A stretch of DNA of 64,000 bases from Guyparkeria hydrothermalis. Lineage in GTDB: Bacteria; Pseudomonadota; Gammaproteobacteria; Halothiobacillales; Halothiobacillaceae. The notes beneath the pieces are model-generated. The model did no database searches, was not told where the DNA came from, and was given only the letters and a program-made list of their open reading frames with translations. Position numbers and translations under genes: made by a program. Every line of letters starts with the position of its first letter. Within the stretch, counting starts at the first letter, position 1. The stretch is from the NCBI RefSeq assembly GCF_023555385.1, contig NZ_JAJSED010000001.1:744001-808000 (forward strand), in the 5' to 3' direction. Shown piece after piece: positions 37-48,287 of the stretch.

Positions 37-1764
37 ATGAACAAGGTTTCGCTCTTCCTGGGTCGACTGTTCGGCGACGTCGGCACGGTCTTCTACCTTT
101 CCGTGCTGATCATCGGCGGCTTCGTCACACTTGCCGCCATGTACCCCGACGACGTCGAACGCGTCGCCCAGCAGGTGCTCGACTTCACCGCCAACAAGAT
201 GGGCTGGATGTACCTGCTGGCGACCACCGGGTTCGTCATCTTCGTCCTGTTCCTGGGGCTGTCGAAGTTCGGCAGCGTGCGTCTGGGGCCGGACGAGGAG
301 CCGCCGGAGTTCAGCTTCAAGAGCTGGCTTGCGATGATCTTCTCCGGCGGCATGGGCGTGGGCCTGGTCTTCTGGGGCGTGGCCGAGCCGATGATGCACT
401 TCAACGAGCCGCCGATGGACCTGAGCGAGCCGCGCTCGGTCGAGGCCGCCCAGATGGGCATGCGCTACGCCTTCTTCCACTGGGGGCTGCACCAGTGGGC
501 CAACTTCGCGCTGGTGGGCCTGGCGCTCGCCTACATCCGCTTTCGCCACAACGCCCGTGGCCTAATCTCCGAGACCTTCCGCCCGATGTTCGGCACCCGC
601 GTCGACGGCATCGGCGGCAAGCTGATCGACACGCTCGCGGTGGTCTCGACCATCTTCGGTGTCGCCACCACGCTTGGCCTGGGCGCGCTGCAGATCAACT
701 CGGGGCTGGCCCGCTTCGAAGGCATGGCCTACGGACCGAACTCCCAGATGCTGATCATCGCGGGACTGGGCGTGCTGTTCACCATTTCGGCGATGACGCC
801 GCTCAAGTGGGGCATCCGCTACCTCTCCAACCTGAACATGATCATCGCCGTGGGCCTGTTCACCTATGTGCTGGTCCTCGGGCCGACCTCGTTCATCTTC
901 CAGGAATTCACCCAGACCATGGGCGAGTACCTGGGCAATATCGTTCAGATGAGCCTGGTGACCACGCCCTACTCCAGCGAGCACTGGGTGCAGCAGTGGA
1001 CGATGTTCTACTGGGCCTGGGGTTTGAGCTGGGCGCCGTTCGTCGGTTCGTTCATCGCGCGGATCTCGCGCGGGCGGACCATCCGCGAGTTCGTGCTCGG
1101 CGTGATGGTCGTGCCGGTGCTCCTGTCGGTGCTGTGGTTCTCGACCTTCGGCGGCAGCGCGATTCACCTCGAGCTCTACCAGGGGGCGGGCATCGCCGAC
1201 GCGGTCGCCCGCGAGGTGCCGGCCGGGCTCTACACCCTGTTCGATCAGCTGCCATGGGGCACCTACGCCGGTCTGCTCGCCATCGCGCTGGTGTGCGTGT
1301 TCGTGGTCACGTCCGCGGATTCGGCGACCTTCGTGCTGGGGATGTTCACCTCCAAGGGCGTGCTCAACCCGACACGCTTCGTGCGCGTGCTGTGGGGCTT
1401 TCTGCAGCTGGCGATGGCGGTGGTGCTGCTGCTCTCCGGGGGGCTGGAGGGCTTGCGGACGGTGTCGATCATCGCCGCCTTCCCCTTCATGCTCCTGATG
1501 GTGCTGATGGCCTTCGCCCTGCACCGGGATCTGACGCAGGAGTTCTGGCAGCGCGAGGAGAAGGAGCGTCTGATCCGCCAGCGGATCGAGGCCATGCTGA
1601 TGCGCGAATCCGAGCGCGAGGCCGAGCGCGCCGCCGCCGAGGAGGTCCACCCGACCGCGCCCGACACGGTGCTCGGGCCAGAACCGCCGCATCTGGCCTC
1701 GGTCGGCCAGCAGGTCGAGATACCGAAGACGCCGGACGGCAGCGACGATACCAAGGGGAAGTGA
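37..1764 (+). CDS. BCCT-family osmolyte (betaine/choline/carnitine) transporter
   Basis: A 575-residue integral inner-membrane carrier for trimethylammonium osmolytes such as glycine betaine, expected to import compatible solutes under salt stress. Family marks seen: the glycine-rich TM3 segment GGMGVGLVFWGVAEP (about residues 104-118) and the aromatic substrate-binding helix FYWAWGLSWAPFVGS (about 325-339), with about 12 hydrophobic segments. The C-terminal 70 residues are hydrophilic and rich in Glu and Arg, as in osmosensing members. No ribosome-binding site is visible before the ATG, and the frame has no stop back to the window edge, so a slightly earlier start is possible. The exact substrate and coupling ion cannot be told from sequence. 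Confidence 0.93.
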   Translation: MNKVSLFLGRLFGDVGTVFYLSVLIIGGFVTLAAMYPDDVERVAQQVLDFTANKMGWMYLLATTGFVIFVLFLGLSKFGSVRLGPDEEPPEFSFKSWLAMIFSGGMGVGLVFWGVAEPMMHFNEPPMDLSEPRSVEAAQMGMRYAFFHWGLHQWANFALVGLALAYIRFRHNARGLISETFRPMFGTRVDGIGGKLIDTLAVVSTIFGVATTLGLGALQINSGLARFEGMAYGPNSQMLIIAGLGVLFTISAMTPLKWGIRYLSNLNMIIAVGLFTYVLVLGPTSFIFQEFTQTMGEYLGNIVQMSLVTTPYSSEHWVQQWTMFYWAWGLSWAPFVGSFIARISRGRTIREFVLGVMVVPVLLSVLWFSTFGGSAIHLELYQGAGIADAVAREVPAGLYTLFDQLPWGTYAGLLAIALVCVFVVTSADSATFVLGMFTSKGVLNPTRFVRVLWGFLQLAMAVVLLLSGGLEGLRTVSIIAAFPFMLLMVLMAFALHRDLTQEFWQREEKERLIRQRIEAMLMRESEREAERAAAEEVHPTAPDTVLGPEPPHLASVGQQVEIPKTPDGSDDTKGK

Positions 1765-1862: not shown

Positions 1863-4520
1863 TCAGCCGCGCCGGTAGCGGCAGGCCCGATTGCGCCCAC
1901 CCTGCTTGGCTTCGTACATGGCCGAGTCGGCCTGCTTGAGCAGCTCCTCGTCGTCGATGCCGTTGGCCTGCGGGTAGAAGGTGTAGCCGATACTCGCGGT
2001 GACGTGCAGGGAGACGCCGTCGATGACGCGCTCCTCGGCGGCTGTCTCGACCAGGCGCTCGATGATCGGCTCGGCATCCCGTTCGTGGCTGATCCCGCCC
2101 AGCAACACGATGAACTCGTCCCCACTGATGCGTGCGAGGGTATCGGTCTCGCGTAGCTGCTCGCCGAGATCGTGCGCCATGTCGATCAGCAGCTTGTCGC
2201 CCATGTCGTGGCCGTGCTCGTCGTTGACGGCCTTAAAGCCGTCCAGATCCAGGAACAGGACGGCCAGCATGCCGCCGCGACGGCGCACCGCCGCCATGCC
2301 CTGTCGCAACCGGTCGGCCATCAGCACCCGGTTGGGCAGACCGGTCAGTGCATCGTGGTTCGCCCGATGCTCGAGCACCTTCTGATAGTTCTTGAGGTCG
2401 GTAATGTCGGTGGCCAACGCAATGTAGTTTCGCGGCTGGCCAGCCGCATCGCGTACCAGGCTGATTGTCAGCCGCTCGGCGAACAGCCGACCGTTCTTGT
2501 GACGGTTCCACACCTCGCCGGTCCAGAAGCCGACCGTGCGCAGACGCTCGCGCATCCGGCGGTAGAACGCCCTGTCGTGGCGGCCGGACTGCAGGAACTT
2601 CGGCGTATGCCCGATCACCTCCTCCCGCTGCCAGCCGGTCATCTCGGTGAAGGCGGCGTTGACGTCGACGATGCGAGCGGCAAGATCGGTGATCAGGATC
2701 CCCTCGCGGGCGTGGACGAATACCGACGCGGCCAGTTGCAGCTCCTGTTCCATCTGCTTGCGTGCGTTGATGTCCTGGTGCGTGCCCCACATGCGTAGCG
2801 GCTTGCCGTCGTCGGTCCACTCGAGCACCCGCCCCCGGTCGAGCACCCAGACCCAGTGGCCGTCCCGGTGACGCATGCGGACCTCGATCTCGTAATAGTC
2901 CCGCTCGCGGCGGAAACAGGCCTGCAACATCCGGTTGGATGCTTCCAGGTCGTCCGGGTGGGCGAAATGCTTCCAGGTCTCGATGCTGATCGGCTGCAAT
3001 TCGGCCAGCTCATAGCCGATGATTTGTGCCCAGCGCTCGTTGAACACCGTCTCGCCGGTCTGGATGTTCCATTCCCAGGTGCCGACATTGGTGCCCTCAA
3101 GAACATTGTTCAGGCGTTCGCGTTCCCGCTTTAGCCCCGCCTCGGCGCGTTCGCGCTCGGTGATGTCATGCACGATGACGAACATGCGCCCGCCGTGGCG
3201 TGGATCGTTGAGCGGCGTGGCATGCACCTCCACCCGGCGTTCCTCGCCACTGCGCAGGCGGTGGCTGTGCTGGTGAGTCGTACCACCCTGCGAATGCCCC
3301 TGACGAATGTCGCTGAAATGGCGACAGCGCGTCACCCACAGGTCCGCGATCGGCCGCCCCTTGAGCTCGTCGCGCGACCAGCCGTAGAAGGCGGCCGCGG
3401 CGGCGTTGGCCGCGACGATCTCGCCTTGGTCGAAGTCGATCACCAGCATCACCGAGGCGTTGTCCTCGAAGAAGCGGCGGAAGCGCCCCTCGCTGCGAAG
3501 CACCGCGACATGGCGCATCAGTAATGCCAGCGACAGGAGCGTGATCGCAAGAATGGAAACACCGACAACCATCGCGAGCAGCCGATACTGCTCCCAGATA
3601 TCGGCCAGGGTGATCTCGCGCGGGGTATCGAACGGCGGCAGCTTCAGCCGCCGGCTCAACTCCTCCACGGGCGCGTAATCGCCCGGCGGGCCGAACCCGG
3701 CAATGCCCGAGAGCATCGCTGCCGGATCACCCGGGTCCAGCGAGAACAGCGCGGCCGCGATCCGGCGTTCCAGGTCAGCGCCCATGTGCGGCATGGTCAC
3801 CATCGGCCACTCGGGGTAGAGCCGCGTGGACACCTGGTAGGGGTAACTGCCCACCGCCTGCGGATGTACCACCCGTAGCTCGTCGATGTGCGCGGCACCC
3901 AGCTCGGCCAGGTTCTCGAGCACGCCGGTACGGATGAAACCCACGTCCACCCGGCCGTCGAGCACCGCCTGGATCACCGCGTCGTGCGTGCCAACGAACG
4001 CAAAAGTGGCCTCCTCGCGCAGGTCGATGCCGGCATCGAAGGCCTCGTACAACGGGGCCCGGTAGCCGCCGAGAAAGCGCGTGTCGGGCGCGGCGATCCT
4101 CTTGCCGGCCAGATCCTCGAGTCGCTCTATGCCGGTCCGGTCCTTGCGCGTGATGATCACGCCGCCCAGGCTGCGCGTGATGGTGCCCTCGTGGCGGGCG
4201 ACCAGGGTGGAGAGCACCCCGGAGAGCGTGTTCTCCGAGCGGACCATGATGTAGTGGGTCGGGTTGGTCAGCAGCAGATCGACCTCGTTGCGGCGGATCG
4301 CGAGATCGAGTTCGTCCGGCGGCATTACCTTAAGACGGAAGGTGACCCCCTCGACCGAATCGTTGAGATAGTCCACCAGCGGCTGGAACCGCTGTTCCAT
4401 GATCGGTGCCGGGCGCATGCCGAACACGCCCACGAGCACCTCCTCCTCGGCGGCCAACGTCGACCCGCTCCAGAGGAGCAACCCGACGAGCATCGGGATC
4501 AGCGGGACACGCGGGCTCAC
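1863..4520 (-). CDS. PhnD-like periplasmic sensor with PAS domains and GGDEF diguanylate cyclase
   Basis: An 885-residue membrane sensor predicted to make cyclic di-GMP in response to a periplasmic ligand. Order: signal peptide (1-23), PhnD-type phosphate/phosphonate-binding domain (about 24-290), one transmembrane helix (about 313-335), three PAS/PAC modules (about 345-715) and a C-terminal GGDEF domain (about 720-885). The signature is SGDEF (about 798-802) rather than GGDEF. The metal and substrate segment FLDLDGFKAVND is intact, and an RETD motif five residues upstream fits an inhibitory I-site. It starts with GTG and overlaps the upstream lipoprotein gene by 4 bases (GTGA), so the two are probably translationally coupled. 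The Ser-for-Gly change may weaken catalysis. The ligand is unknown. Confidence 0.88.
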   Translation of the reverse strand: MSPRVPLIPMLVGLLLWSGSTLAAEEEVLVGVFGMRPAPIMEQRFQPLVDYLNDSVEGVTFRLKVMPPDELDLAIRRNEVDLLLTNPTHYIMVRSENTLSGVLSTLVARHEGTITRSLGGVIITRKDRTGIERLEDLAGKRIAAPDTRFLGGYRAPLYEAFDAGIDLREEATFAFVGTHDAVIQAVLDGRVDVGFIRTGVLENLAELGAAHIDELRVVHPQAVGSYPYQVSTRLYPEWPMVTMPHMGADLERRIAAALFSLDPGDPAAMLSGIAGFGPPGDYAPVEELSRRLKLPPFDTPREITLADIWEQYRLLAMVVGVSILAITLLSLALLMRHVAVLRSEGRFRRFFEDNASVMLVIDFDQGEIVAANAAAAAFYGWSRDELKGRPIADLWVTRCRHFSDIRQGHSQGGTTHQHSHRLRSGEERRVEVHATPLNDPRHGGRMFVIVHDITERERAEAGLKRERERLNNVLEGTNVGTWEWNIQTGETVFNERWAQIIGYELAELQPISIETWKHFAHPDDLEASNRMLQACFRRERDYYEIEVRMRHRDGHWVWVLDRGRVLEWTDDGKPLRMWGTHQDINARKQMEQELQLAASVFVHAREGILITDLAARIVDVNAAFTEMTGWQREEVIGHTPKFLQSGRHDRAFYRRMRERLRTVGFWTGEVWNRHKNGRLFAERLTISLVRDAAGQPRNYIALATDITDLKNYQKVLEHRANHDALTGLPNRVLMADRLRQGMAAVRRRGGMLAVLFLDLDGFKAVNDEHGHDMGDKLLIDMAHDLGEQLRETDTLARISGDEFIVLLGGISHERDAEPIIERLVETAAEERVIDGVSLHVTASIGYTFYPQANGIDDEELLKQADSAMYEAKQGGRNRACRYRRG

Positions 4521-5476
4521 GTGCTCGACTCCCGTGGCAGGTAGTCCGACGTGACCCAGGTTTCGACCTCGCTCACGGAGGGCGGCTCGTCGCCGTTGGA
4601 CAGGCGCGGGTACAGGGTGCGAATGGCGTCGATCAGGCGTGACTCGTGTGACAGGTAGCGACGGTTGCTCTCCAGACCGGGCAGCAGCACGCCACCGATC
4701 GAGCGACTTACCGCCCGTTCACTGACCTGGTGGGCGTCGGCGATTCGGTACACGGCATCCTGCAGGTTGGTTTGCAGGTGATGCAGACCGCGGAAATGCG
4801 CGCGGATCACGTCGGTCAGGACCCGGTCGACGGCATCGAGGCGCTCGCGGCGGATGGCGAGCACGTCGAATATCAGGTCGGGGAAATCGCGGCTGTCGAT
4901 CAGCTGCCGGGCACCGGCTGCCCGCAATCGCGACGCGACGGGCTCGTAGCTGACCACGGCGTCCAGTTCGTCCTCGCGCCAGGCGTTCAGGTGCTGATCG
5001 ACGGAACGGTTGACGATGGTGACGTCACCCCAGTCGAGACCGGCCCGGGCGAGCACCCGGTCGAGCAGCATCTCGCCCACCCCGCCCAGTTCGACGCCGA
5101 TGCGCTTGCCGGCCAGATCCTCCGGCGAATCGATACCCGGCCCGACCAGTAGCGCGTCCCCACCGGCGGAGACGTCGAACACCATGACCACGACCAGGTC
5201 CATGCCCCCGAGCCGCGCCCGGATGACTTCGTCGAGGGTCAGGGCGGCGCCGTCGACCTCGCCGCGCCGCAGCGCCGCGAGCGACTGGCTGGCCGAACCG
5301 AGGCGCTTGAGCGAGACAGTCGGCGGCAACCAGCGGAATTGCGAGCCGAGCAGCAGCGTCTCGTAACCGACCCATGGGTGGTAGGCAAGCCGGATAGGCT
5401 GCTCACGAGCCCGGCAACCGCCAACGAATGTGGCAACAGCCAACGGCGCGCTGATCAGAAAGGTGCGTCGTTGCAT
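4517..5476 (-). CDS. Orphan substrate-binding lipoprotein (NrtA/SsuA/TauA-like)
   Basis: A 319-residue periplasmic binding protein of the NMT1/SsuA-like class. The N-terminus combines a twin-arginine-like motif (QRRTFLI, residues 2-8) with a lipobox VGGC ending at Cys21, so it may be a Tat-exported lipoprotein. The body has typical binding-fold phrases such as LAYHPWVGYE and DLAGKRIGVELG. No ABC permease or ATPase is nearby. Its stop overlaps the start of the sensor cyclase by 4 bases. The likely role, by inference, is to deliver a ligand to that sensor rather than to a transporter. Possible ligands are sulfonates, nitrate-like anions or a pyrimidine. None can be chosen from sequence. Confidence 0.8.
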   Translation of the reverse strand: MQRRTFLISAPLAVATFVGGCRAREQPIRLAYHPWVGYETLLLGSQFRWLPPTVSLKRLGSASQSLAALRRGEVDGAALTLDEVIRARLGGMDLVVVMVFDVSAGGDALLVGPGIDSPEDLAGKRIGVELGGVGEMLLDRVLARAGLDWGDVTIVNRSVDQHLNAWREDELDAVVSYEPVASRLRAAGARQLIDSRDFPDLIFDVLAIRRERLDAVDRVLTDVIRAHFRGLHHLQTNLQDAVYRIADAHQVSERAVSRSIGGVLLPGLESNRRYLSHESRLIDAIRTLYPRLSNGDEPPSVSEVETWVTSDYLPRESST

Positions 5477-5687: not shown

Positions 5688-5720
5688 CAAAAACAACGAC
5701 CGGCGCGTGTGGCCGGTCGT
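5688..5720 (-). terminator. Terminator of the rhodanese gene
   Basis: On the minus strand, ACGACCGGC (5720-5712) pairs with GCCGGTCGT (5704-5696) around a 7-base loop, followed by TGTTTTTG. It lies about 30 bases after the rhodanese stop. The rest of the gap to the lipoprotein gene (5477-5687) is locally AT-rich and probably holds that operon's promoter, but no convincing -35/-10 pair was found. Confidence 0.82.
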
Positions 5721-5751: not shown

Positions 5752-6408
5752 CTAGGACGGGTCCACCGTCGTCAGCCCGAGCGTGTGCCACATCTGCATG
5801 CCGCCGCGATACCAGTAGATCTTGTCGGCCGGGTAACCGTAGGACACCAGCGCCTTGATGTTGGTCGGCGACTGGCCACACCACGGGCCGTTGCAGAACA
5901 GCACCAGTTTCTTCGCCTGACGGAAGTCGAACAGACCTTCGTCCTTCTTCACTCCAAACTCGTCGAGCAGCAGCGTCTCGGCGACGAAGGGGTCATAGGA
6001 GGAGGAGCCCGGGTAGAGCCGGGTCCAGGGAATATTGACAGCACTGGGAATGGTGCCCTTCTCGAACCAGTCAGGCGTACGCGAATCGATCAGCAGGAAG
6101 GCATCCTCGCCGTTGGCGCGGGCCTGGAGCATCTTGAGCAGCTCGATCTCGCCGATGGTGTGCACGCCCGGGAGCAGCTGGATCGGCTGCACGCAGAACG
6201 GCGGGCATTCACGAGCGGTCTTGGTGTAGTCCTCGGCGATCCGGTTGTCCGGGTCCTGGTTGCGCTTGATGACGACCGGCTGGCCGTTGTGCTCGACGGT
6301 CACCGAGCCGAGATCCCGGGTGACCTTGACCTTCATCTCTTCCTCGGCGCCGGCGAGACCCGCCACACCGAGCAGCGCGATACCGACAATCCAGTGACGT
6401 GCGTTCAT
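5752..6408 (-). CDS. Exported rhodanese-domain protein
   Basis: A 218-residue protein with a signal peptide (cleavage near residues 20-21), so it acts in the periplasm or at the membrane. The C-terminal half is a rhodanese domain: LLIDSR (105-110) begins the fold and FCNGPWCGQS (171-180) is the active-site loop. Cys172 is the expected persulfide-forming residue and Cys177 is a second Cys in the loop. Two more cysteines lie at 68 and 72. Rhodaneses move sulfane sulfur from thiosulfate or persulfides to thiol acceptors, and such periplasmic forms are common in sulfur-oxidising bacteria. The start has a good ribosome-binding site (GGGAGATCGCT before ATG). The gene follows ugd by 56 bases. Substrate is unknown. 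Confidence 0.85.
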   Translation of the reverse strand: MNARHWIVGIALLGVAGLAGAEEEMKVKVTRDLGSVTVEHNGQPVVIKRNQDPDNRIAEDYTKTARECPPFCVQPIQLLPGVHTIGEIELLKMLQARANGEDAFLLIDSRTPDWFEKGTIPSAVNIPWTRLYPGSSSYDPFVAETLLLDEFGVKKDEGLFDFRQAKKLVLFCNGPWCGQSPTNIKALVSYGYPADKIYWYRGGMQMWHTLGLTTVDPS

Positions 6409-47498: not shown

Positions 47499-48287
47499 TC
47501 ACGCCCCAAACATGAAAGCAGTCATTACAAAGTCCAGCCCCAGCACGGCCAGCGAGCTCAGGACCACCGTCTGCGTCGTCGCCCGTGCCATGCCGCTGGC
47601 CGTGGGTTCGGCCCGATAACCCTCATAGACGGAGATCAACGCGATCACCGCCCCAAACGCCAGCGATTTCACTGCCCCGCCACCGACATCCTCCCATGCC
47701 TCCATCTGCTCGGCGATCTGACCCCAGTAGGATGCCTGGTCGACGCCCAGCACCACCACGCCGATCAGATAACCGCCGATGATCCCCACCAGGGAGAACA
47801 GCGCGGCCAACAGCGGTACCGAAATCATCGCCCCCCAGAAGCGCGGCCCGATCACCCGACGCAACGGATCAACCGCCATCATCTCCAGTGCGGCGAGCTG
47901 CTCGGTGGTCTTCATCAGCGCGATCTCCGCGGTGATGGCGGACCCCGCCCGGCCGGCGAACAGCAAGGCGGCTACCACCGGCCCCAGCTCGCGGACCAGC
48001 GACAGCGCCACCATCACGCCAAGCGACTCGCTGGCATTGAAGTTCGAGAGGATGTTGTAGCCCTGCAGGCCCAGCACCAGGCCGACGAACCCGCCGGCAA
48101 CCAGGATGATCGCGAGCGACAGCACACCGGCGGCGTAGACCTGCTGGGCGATGTCACGCGGACGAGCCCAGGTCGGCATCAGCACCCAGGAAAGCTCGAC
48201 GGCAAACAGGGCCATCGCGCCGGCGTGGTGCACGCCACCAATCACCTGGCGCCCAAGTCGGGCGATCGCATCAATCAGCCGGTTCAT
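47499..48287 (-). CDS. mlaE: MlaE, phospholipid ABC permease
   Basis: A 262-residue inner-membrane permease of the Mla transporter. Conserved parts: LSLVRELGPVVAALLFAGRA, AITAEIALMKTTEQLAALEM and DPLRRVIGPRFWGAMISVPL. About six hydrophobic stretches. It overlaps mlaF by 4 bases (ATGA). Confidence 0.96.
   Translation of the reverse strand: MNRLIDAIARLGRQVIGGVHHAGAMALFAVELSWVLMPTWARPRDIAQQVYAAGVLSLAIILVAGGFVGLVLGLQGYNILSNFNASESLGVMVALSLVRELGPVVAALLFAGRAGSAITAEIALMKTTEQLAALEMMAVDPLRRVIGPRFWGAMISVPLLAALFSLVGIIGGYLIGVVVLGVDQASYWGQIAEQMEAWEDVGGGAVKSLAFGAVIALISVYEGYRAEPTASGMARATTQTVVLSSLAVLGLDFVMTAFMFGA

Follow-up and report, generated by a model that had tools for sequence, protein, structure and literature searches.

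In Guyparkeria hydrothermalis, a member of a genus of halophilic sulfur oxidizers within the Halothiobacillaceae (PMC9032823), we describe a solute-binding lipoprotein and a membrane sensor encoded by overlapping genes, which together probably constitute a binding-protein-dependent transmembrane receptor with the lipoprotein as its input subunit, a reading to which we assign a probability of roughly two in three. The lipoprotein belongs to a large family without a name, whose genes lie almost always beside a sensor gene and not beside a transporter. The features of the pair are given below in the coordinates of the window, i.e., the whole stretch of 64,000 nucleotides that was analysed.

4517-5476, minus strand: orphan solute-binding lipoprotein, 319 aa, ATG start, NMT1/TauA-SsuA fold, 502 bits against the subfamily profile
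5408-5476, minus strand: signal peptide (twin-arginine motif RRTFL, lipobox VGGC), read from the sequence
5416-5414, minus strand: codon of the lipidation cysteine, Cys21, read from the sequence
1863-4520, minus strand: membrane sensor, 885 aa, GTG start, with a PhnD-type periplasmic domain, a transmembrane helix, three PAS domains, and a GGDEF domain
4517-4520, minus strand: GTGA, stop/start overlap of the lipoprotein and sensor genes
4533-4529, minus strand: GGGAG, Shine-Dalgarno-like, inside the lipoprotein gene and a plausible ribosome-binding site for the sensor
3687-4424, minus strand: periplasmic PhnD-type (PtxB/ArrX-fold) domain, residues 33-278 (Pfam Phosphonate-bd, AlphaFold2 model and fold search)
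3516-3584, minus strand: predicted transmembrane helix, residues ~313-335 (hydrophobic stretch LLAMVVGVSILAITLLSLALLMR in the translation)
2397-3485, minus strand: three PAS domains, residues ~346-708 (domain search)
1887-2363, minus strand: GGDEF domain, residues 720-878, with SGDEF active-site motif and I-site RETD (domain search)
5696-5720, minus strand: terminator-like hairpin with a 9-bp stem, separating the pair from the rhodanese gene upstream

A preliminary description, made from the DNA letters, had reported two open reading frames sharing the four bases GTGA with no ABC permease or ATPase nearby, and both statements were borne out: the frames were recovered at exactly the same coordinates, no ABC permease was found among the ORFs of the 64-kb window, and the closest ABC ATPase-like ORF in the window is the one at 48284, more than 40 kb from the pair. 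The hairpin at 5696-5720 suggests a separate transcription unit for the pair, with about two terminator-like sites of this kind expected by chance in the region. On either side lie a BCCT transporter gene (37-1764, plus strand), convergent with the sensor gene, and a rhodanese gene (5752-6408); both are kept in several Guyparkeria genomes, and these flanks probably represent synteny only.

The lipoprotein opens with a Tat-like N-terminus (MQRRTFL) followed by the lipobox VGGC21, and its Pfam matches are NMT1 and NMT1_2. Its AlphaFold2 model (pLDDT 93) has TauA as top PDB fold and SsuA next, with Foldseek ranks 1-8 taken by TauA/SsuA entries barring one from S. aureus, and it scores 91.7 bits against the NCBI SsuA family TIGR01728, under the cut-off of 163.5; the initial label of an NrtA/SsuA-like orphan lipoprotein keeps its orphan binding-protein type, with TauA rather than SsuA as the nearest fold. 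For the sensor, Pfam gives PhnD, PAS, and GGDEF domains, in agreement with the original reading of a sensor with its own PhnD-type domain and a cyclase output. The model of the PhnD domain (pLDDT 89.5) has PtxB/ArrX as top fold, and the protein scores 109.9 bits against the NCBI TtrS model NF040750 (cut-off 750) through its N-terminal domain alone. The GGDEF domain match is 158.6 bits, and the SGDEF variant motif and intact I-site RETD are conserved in orthologs of the sensor; with domain, active-site motif, and I-site all present, the sensor is predicted to be an active diguanylate cyclase.

The pairing is conserved. In a first comparison, 57 relatives were searched for the closest lipoproteins, which were found (55-77% identity) in eight other Guyparkeria genomes, and the PhnD-PAS-GGDEF sensor adjoins the lipoprotein gene in 8/8 of these orthologs. 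The same genome and its relatives also encode a second lipoprotein, 41% identical, which precedes a HAMP-PAS-GGDEF-EAL sensor without PhnD, and these two genes likewise overlap by 4 bp. A profile built from 11 lipoproteins was then searched in 369 genomes of the class, and the neighbourhoods of about 100 matches were read. Among family members of at least 225 bits, a membrane sensor directly follows on the same strand in 52 of 54 (49 by automatic reading and L071, L105, and L119 on inspection), usually with a 4-bp overlap, the search profile and HMMs having been made partly from sequences that were then counted. Guyparkeria supplies 14 of the 54, and the sensor pairing outside the genus stands at 38/40; the high-scoring members without an adjacent sensor are L094 and L114. 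Lipoprotein-sensor fusion was considered at L071 and L107 and rejected, as the long frames there are upstream extensions without a recognisable domain. Lower-scoring relatives at 100-165 bits (n = 36) lie with permease or ATPase genes in 24 cases and with sensors in 2, and from a wider phylum sample 20 loci were fetched and 17 resolved, 15 of them with a sensor and 2 with ABC genes. The linked permease and ATPase expected of an ABC importer binding protein were not found within 40 kb on the downstream side of the window and are almost never seen across the subfamily. The lipidation cysteine, Cys21, is invariant in 55/55 family members of at least 225 bits and mostly missing from ABC-linked relatives, which also favours a receptor subunit. 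Adjacency in related genomes had been proposed as the check on a sensing module, with an unconserved pairing, or a lipoprotein gene usually sitting with ABC genes, named as the outcomes that would speak against it; neither was seen.

The sensors that partner these lipoproteins end in GGDEF, GGDEF-EAL, histidine kinase, or hybrid kinase outputs. Several kinase loci have an EAL response regulator downstream, and one encodes a protein related to the NosR family, whose members are c-di-GMP phosphodiesterase response regulators, so c-di-GMP is the commonest destination. The c-di-GMP output first proposed is predicted for the cyclase here and is not universal, since some relatives pair with histidine kinases. 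Two kinds of input occur among the partners, namely, the PhnD-type domain or a TM-flanked segment of ~155 residues that precedes HAMP. These ~155-residue segments are homologous to one another whether the partner is a cyclase or a kinase (36/36 beat all shuffles in leave-one-out profile tests). Their Pfam matches (CHASE8, Cache) are weak and scattered, nothing in the PDB matches them significantly, and the shared periplasmic domain of L035, L047, L104, L115, and other partners (residues ~30-190) is probably Cache-like. Both kinds of sensor accompany one lipoprotein in a three-gene operon (L046:1182-7134; lipoprotein, HAMP-PAS-GGDEF-EAL, and PhnD-PAS-GGDEF). Elsewhere in the G. hydrothermalis genome (L036:6166-11880, i.e., C1:612165-617879), two tandem PhnD-GGDEF-EAL genes occur without a lipoprotein; a search of their GGDEF domains found no G-[DE]-E-F motif, so these proteins may act as phosphodiesterases. 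Separately, NMT1 domains in one further genome (G243; L241, L250, L258, and L264) lie within very long open frames of 1040-2267 aa, a sign that another NMT1 subfamily may be fused directly to further domains.

Lipoprotein and PhnD domain also appear to be inherited together. In the lipoprotein tree, all members with a PhnD partner fall in one clade of 19 (support 100/88), whose exceptions are L046, where the three-gene operon includes a PhnD-GGDEF sensor; L091, with an in-frame deletion of most of the PhnD domain, and its sister L089, truncated within PhnD; and L094, an orphan lipoprotein gene in a genome (G274) with a PhnD kinase gene of matching subtype at an unlinked locus. At L091:3033-6002 and L089:5345-5941, which come from two sister species, the PhnD domain has been lost or truncated and the lipoprotein gene is intact. 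In the PhnD tree, a 98% branch separates two groups: one holds the 16 linked domains, the domain from G274, and only 2 unlinked domains, and the other holds 19 unlinked PhnD sensors. Such shared clades of lipoproteins and PhnD domains would be expected of a working pair; within the PhnD-partnered clade, the PhnD domain is joined to varying outputs.

Which ligand the lipoprotein might bind was approached through its pocket and its relatives. In a profile alignment at ~20% identity, D107 and D204 of the lipoprotein fall at the positions of TauA Glu106 and Asp205, whose carboxylates bind the taurine amine (PMC6906117). D107 is invariant in 55/55 members, D107 and D204 are both kept in almost every family member, and D82, E83, and E/D178 provide further acidic groups. 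In a tree with other NMT1 proteins, the lipoproteins stand, with moderate support, beside a larger group that includes guanidine importers and proteins without an assigned ligand. The ABC-linked relative in the same genome adjoins urea/guanidine carboxylase and UAAP genes, and in 12 of the 17 ABC-linked loci examined for RNA families a guanidine-I riboswitch lies directly upstream of the binding-protein gene, which is the arrangement of guanidine import operons (PMC12186494). No guanidine riboswitch was found in the window or at ~38 sensor-linked loci, and the pair itself showed no riboswitch when examined for one. Kinship with guanidine importers, taken with TauA-like amine-binding carboxylates, makes a small amine- or guanidinium-like cation the more likely ligand and our leading guess from these comparisons, with guanidine itself possible. 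Of the two-protein sensing module put forward in the preliminary description, the module gains from conserved adjacency and co-inheritance, and what looks less likely are the nitrate, sulfonate, or phosphonate ligands it listed for testing, which importer kinship and pocket residues disfavour for the lipoprotein. No metabolic neighbour that would name the ligand is conserved across genera; the BCCT, rhodanese, and UDP-glucose dehydrogenase genes were rejected as clues because they reflect genus synteny, and strict co-occurrence with guanidine use was rejected because several Guyparkeria keep the pair without a close guanidine-type binding-protein relative. The genome also carries (L037:887-8784, near C1:260000) an operon of guanidine import and carboxylase genes that has both a guanidine-I and a guanidine-II riboswitch; its products are still called urea transporter and urea carboxylase by annotation models.

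For physical docking, ligand class, and direction of response, we infer the following. The exported lipoprotein would serve as a Venus-flytrap input subunit that has lost its transporter service; its ligand would be small, most likely a cation of the amine or guanidinium type, and binding would close the flytrap. Once closed, the lipoprotein would dock onto the sensor encoded with it, at a periplasmic domain that is here of PhnD type and may additionally read a second, anionic ligand or offer no more than a docking surface. The signal would then travel via the membrane helix and the three PAS domains to the product-inhibitable GGDEF domain and alter its diguanylate cyclase activity. That the lipoprotein supplies the ligand specificity of a two-protein receptor is, in our judgement, the best explanation of the pairing.

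Three other readings were weighed. The PhnD domain could be the sole sensor, as in TtrS, and the lipoprotein a ligand scavenger or apo-state inhibitor that tunes this domain and presents no ligand. PhnD sensors without a lipoprotein are indeed common (most of ~100 in the 369 genomes by score tier, and 18 of the 20 read), so the domain can work alone; it resembles the TtrS sensor domain (110 bits), and YfiBNR offers a case in which an envelope lipoprotein indirectly controls a cyclase (PMC4655355). We nevertheless consider a sole PhnD sensor unlikely, since the same lipoprotein subfamily pairs with sensors having a different periplasmic domain and its pocket residues are strongly conserved, which suggests that the ligand binding of the lipoprotein is important. 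Quite improbable is an outer-membrane lipoprotein that reports the envelope state in the manner of YfiB or RcsF, its flytrap binding no ligand. Such a role would suit the invariant lipidation cysteine and the +2 residue, which is Arg here and rarely Asp across the family. By the E. coli Lol +2 rule, Arg at this position suggests sorting to the outer membrane, a point against the preferred reading in that an inner-membrane sensor would then be harder to reach; an envelope reporter would, however, leave the TauA ligand-contact equivalents D107 and D204, present in almost every member, to be accounted for. Least probable is that the lipoprotein feeds an unlinked ABC transporter in an operon that merely co-regulates uptake and sensor. 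In favour of this, the lipoprotein is folded and annotated like an ABC binding protein; against it, the subfamily is almost never beside ABC genes, its sensor partners occur in many bacterial families, and the guanidine-type binding protein of the same genome has its own permease and ATPase.

The preferred reading, a receptor with the lipoprotein as input subunit, has an established counterpart in NspS-MbaA, the binding-protein-dependent polyamine receptor of Vibrio (PMC8967002). Both combine a transporter-less binding protein with a transmembrane c-di-GMP enzyme, probably with a cationic ligand in each case, and the pair belongs to this kind in that it encodes a binding protein and a transmembrane sensor without transporter genes. 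It is not NspS-MbaA proper, as MbaA is a GGDEF-EAL protein without PhnD, whereas the sensor here is PhnD-PAS-GGDEF without EAL; NspS is PotD-like, in contrast to the NMT1/TauA-like lipoprotein, whose family also drives histidine kinases. Among the transport relatives whose ligand can be inferred, the closest are the binding proteins of guanidine ABC importers (TIGR03427 type), which share T80, S103, G105, D107, D204, and an S-x3-P-x2-I-x-D signature with the lipoprotein but differ from it at pocket residues 38, 61, 82, and 178, are usually not lipoproteins, and are encoded by genes linked to permease and ATPase; the guanidine riboswitch or guanidine operon that would mark a guanidine-binding protein does not accompany the lipoprotein gene. 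Alkanesulfonate-binding proteins of the TauA/SsuA type have the same fold as the lipoprotein, at ~20% identity, and here there are no ABC genes. AioX and ArrX, binding proteins of the PhnD family with links to As-sensing histidine kinases, also employ the PhnD-type fold in sensing; in those systems the free partner is the PhnD protein, whereas here PhnD is a sensor domain and the free partner is TauA-like. TtrS/ThsS-type sensors (PMC5408782) join a PhnD-type periplasmic domain to a membrane sensor as well, with a kinase output where the present sensor has GGDEF and is accompanied by a binding lipoprotein.

Our literature search, with partial journal coverage, found no paper on NMT1-type lipoproteins paired with GGDEF sensors, and according to a 2022 review of c-di-GMP sensing, SBP_bac_3 alone within the periplasmic-binding-protein clan had been studied in c-di-GMP networks (PMC8846402). 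Few cases of receptor-dedicated binding proteins are on record; genome context now allows a whole TauA/NMT1-like subfamily, with the simple signature of lipobox Cys, TLDE, DxSxGxD, and E/D-P, to be assigned to signalling. Given a family that sits beside sensors and not transporters, many proteins labelled as parts of transporters probably belong to receptors as subunits, and many genes now called "ABC transporter substrate-binding protein" would become receptor subunits on re-annotation; a pair in the alphaproteobacterium Niveispirillum, for example, is annotated as "ABC transporter substrate-binding protein" and "EAL domain-containing protein". More speculatively, and with considerable doubt, these widespread proteobacterial lipoproteins, kin of guanidine importers, might be exchangeable inputs of c-di-GMP enzymes and kinases that sense guanidinium-like cations, with the PhnD subtype responding to two ligands. 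If true, that subtype would stack two different flytraps into a two-ligand receptor, and guanidinium-like cations would be sensed outside the cell.
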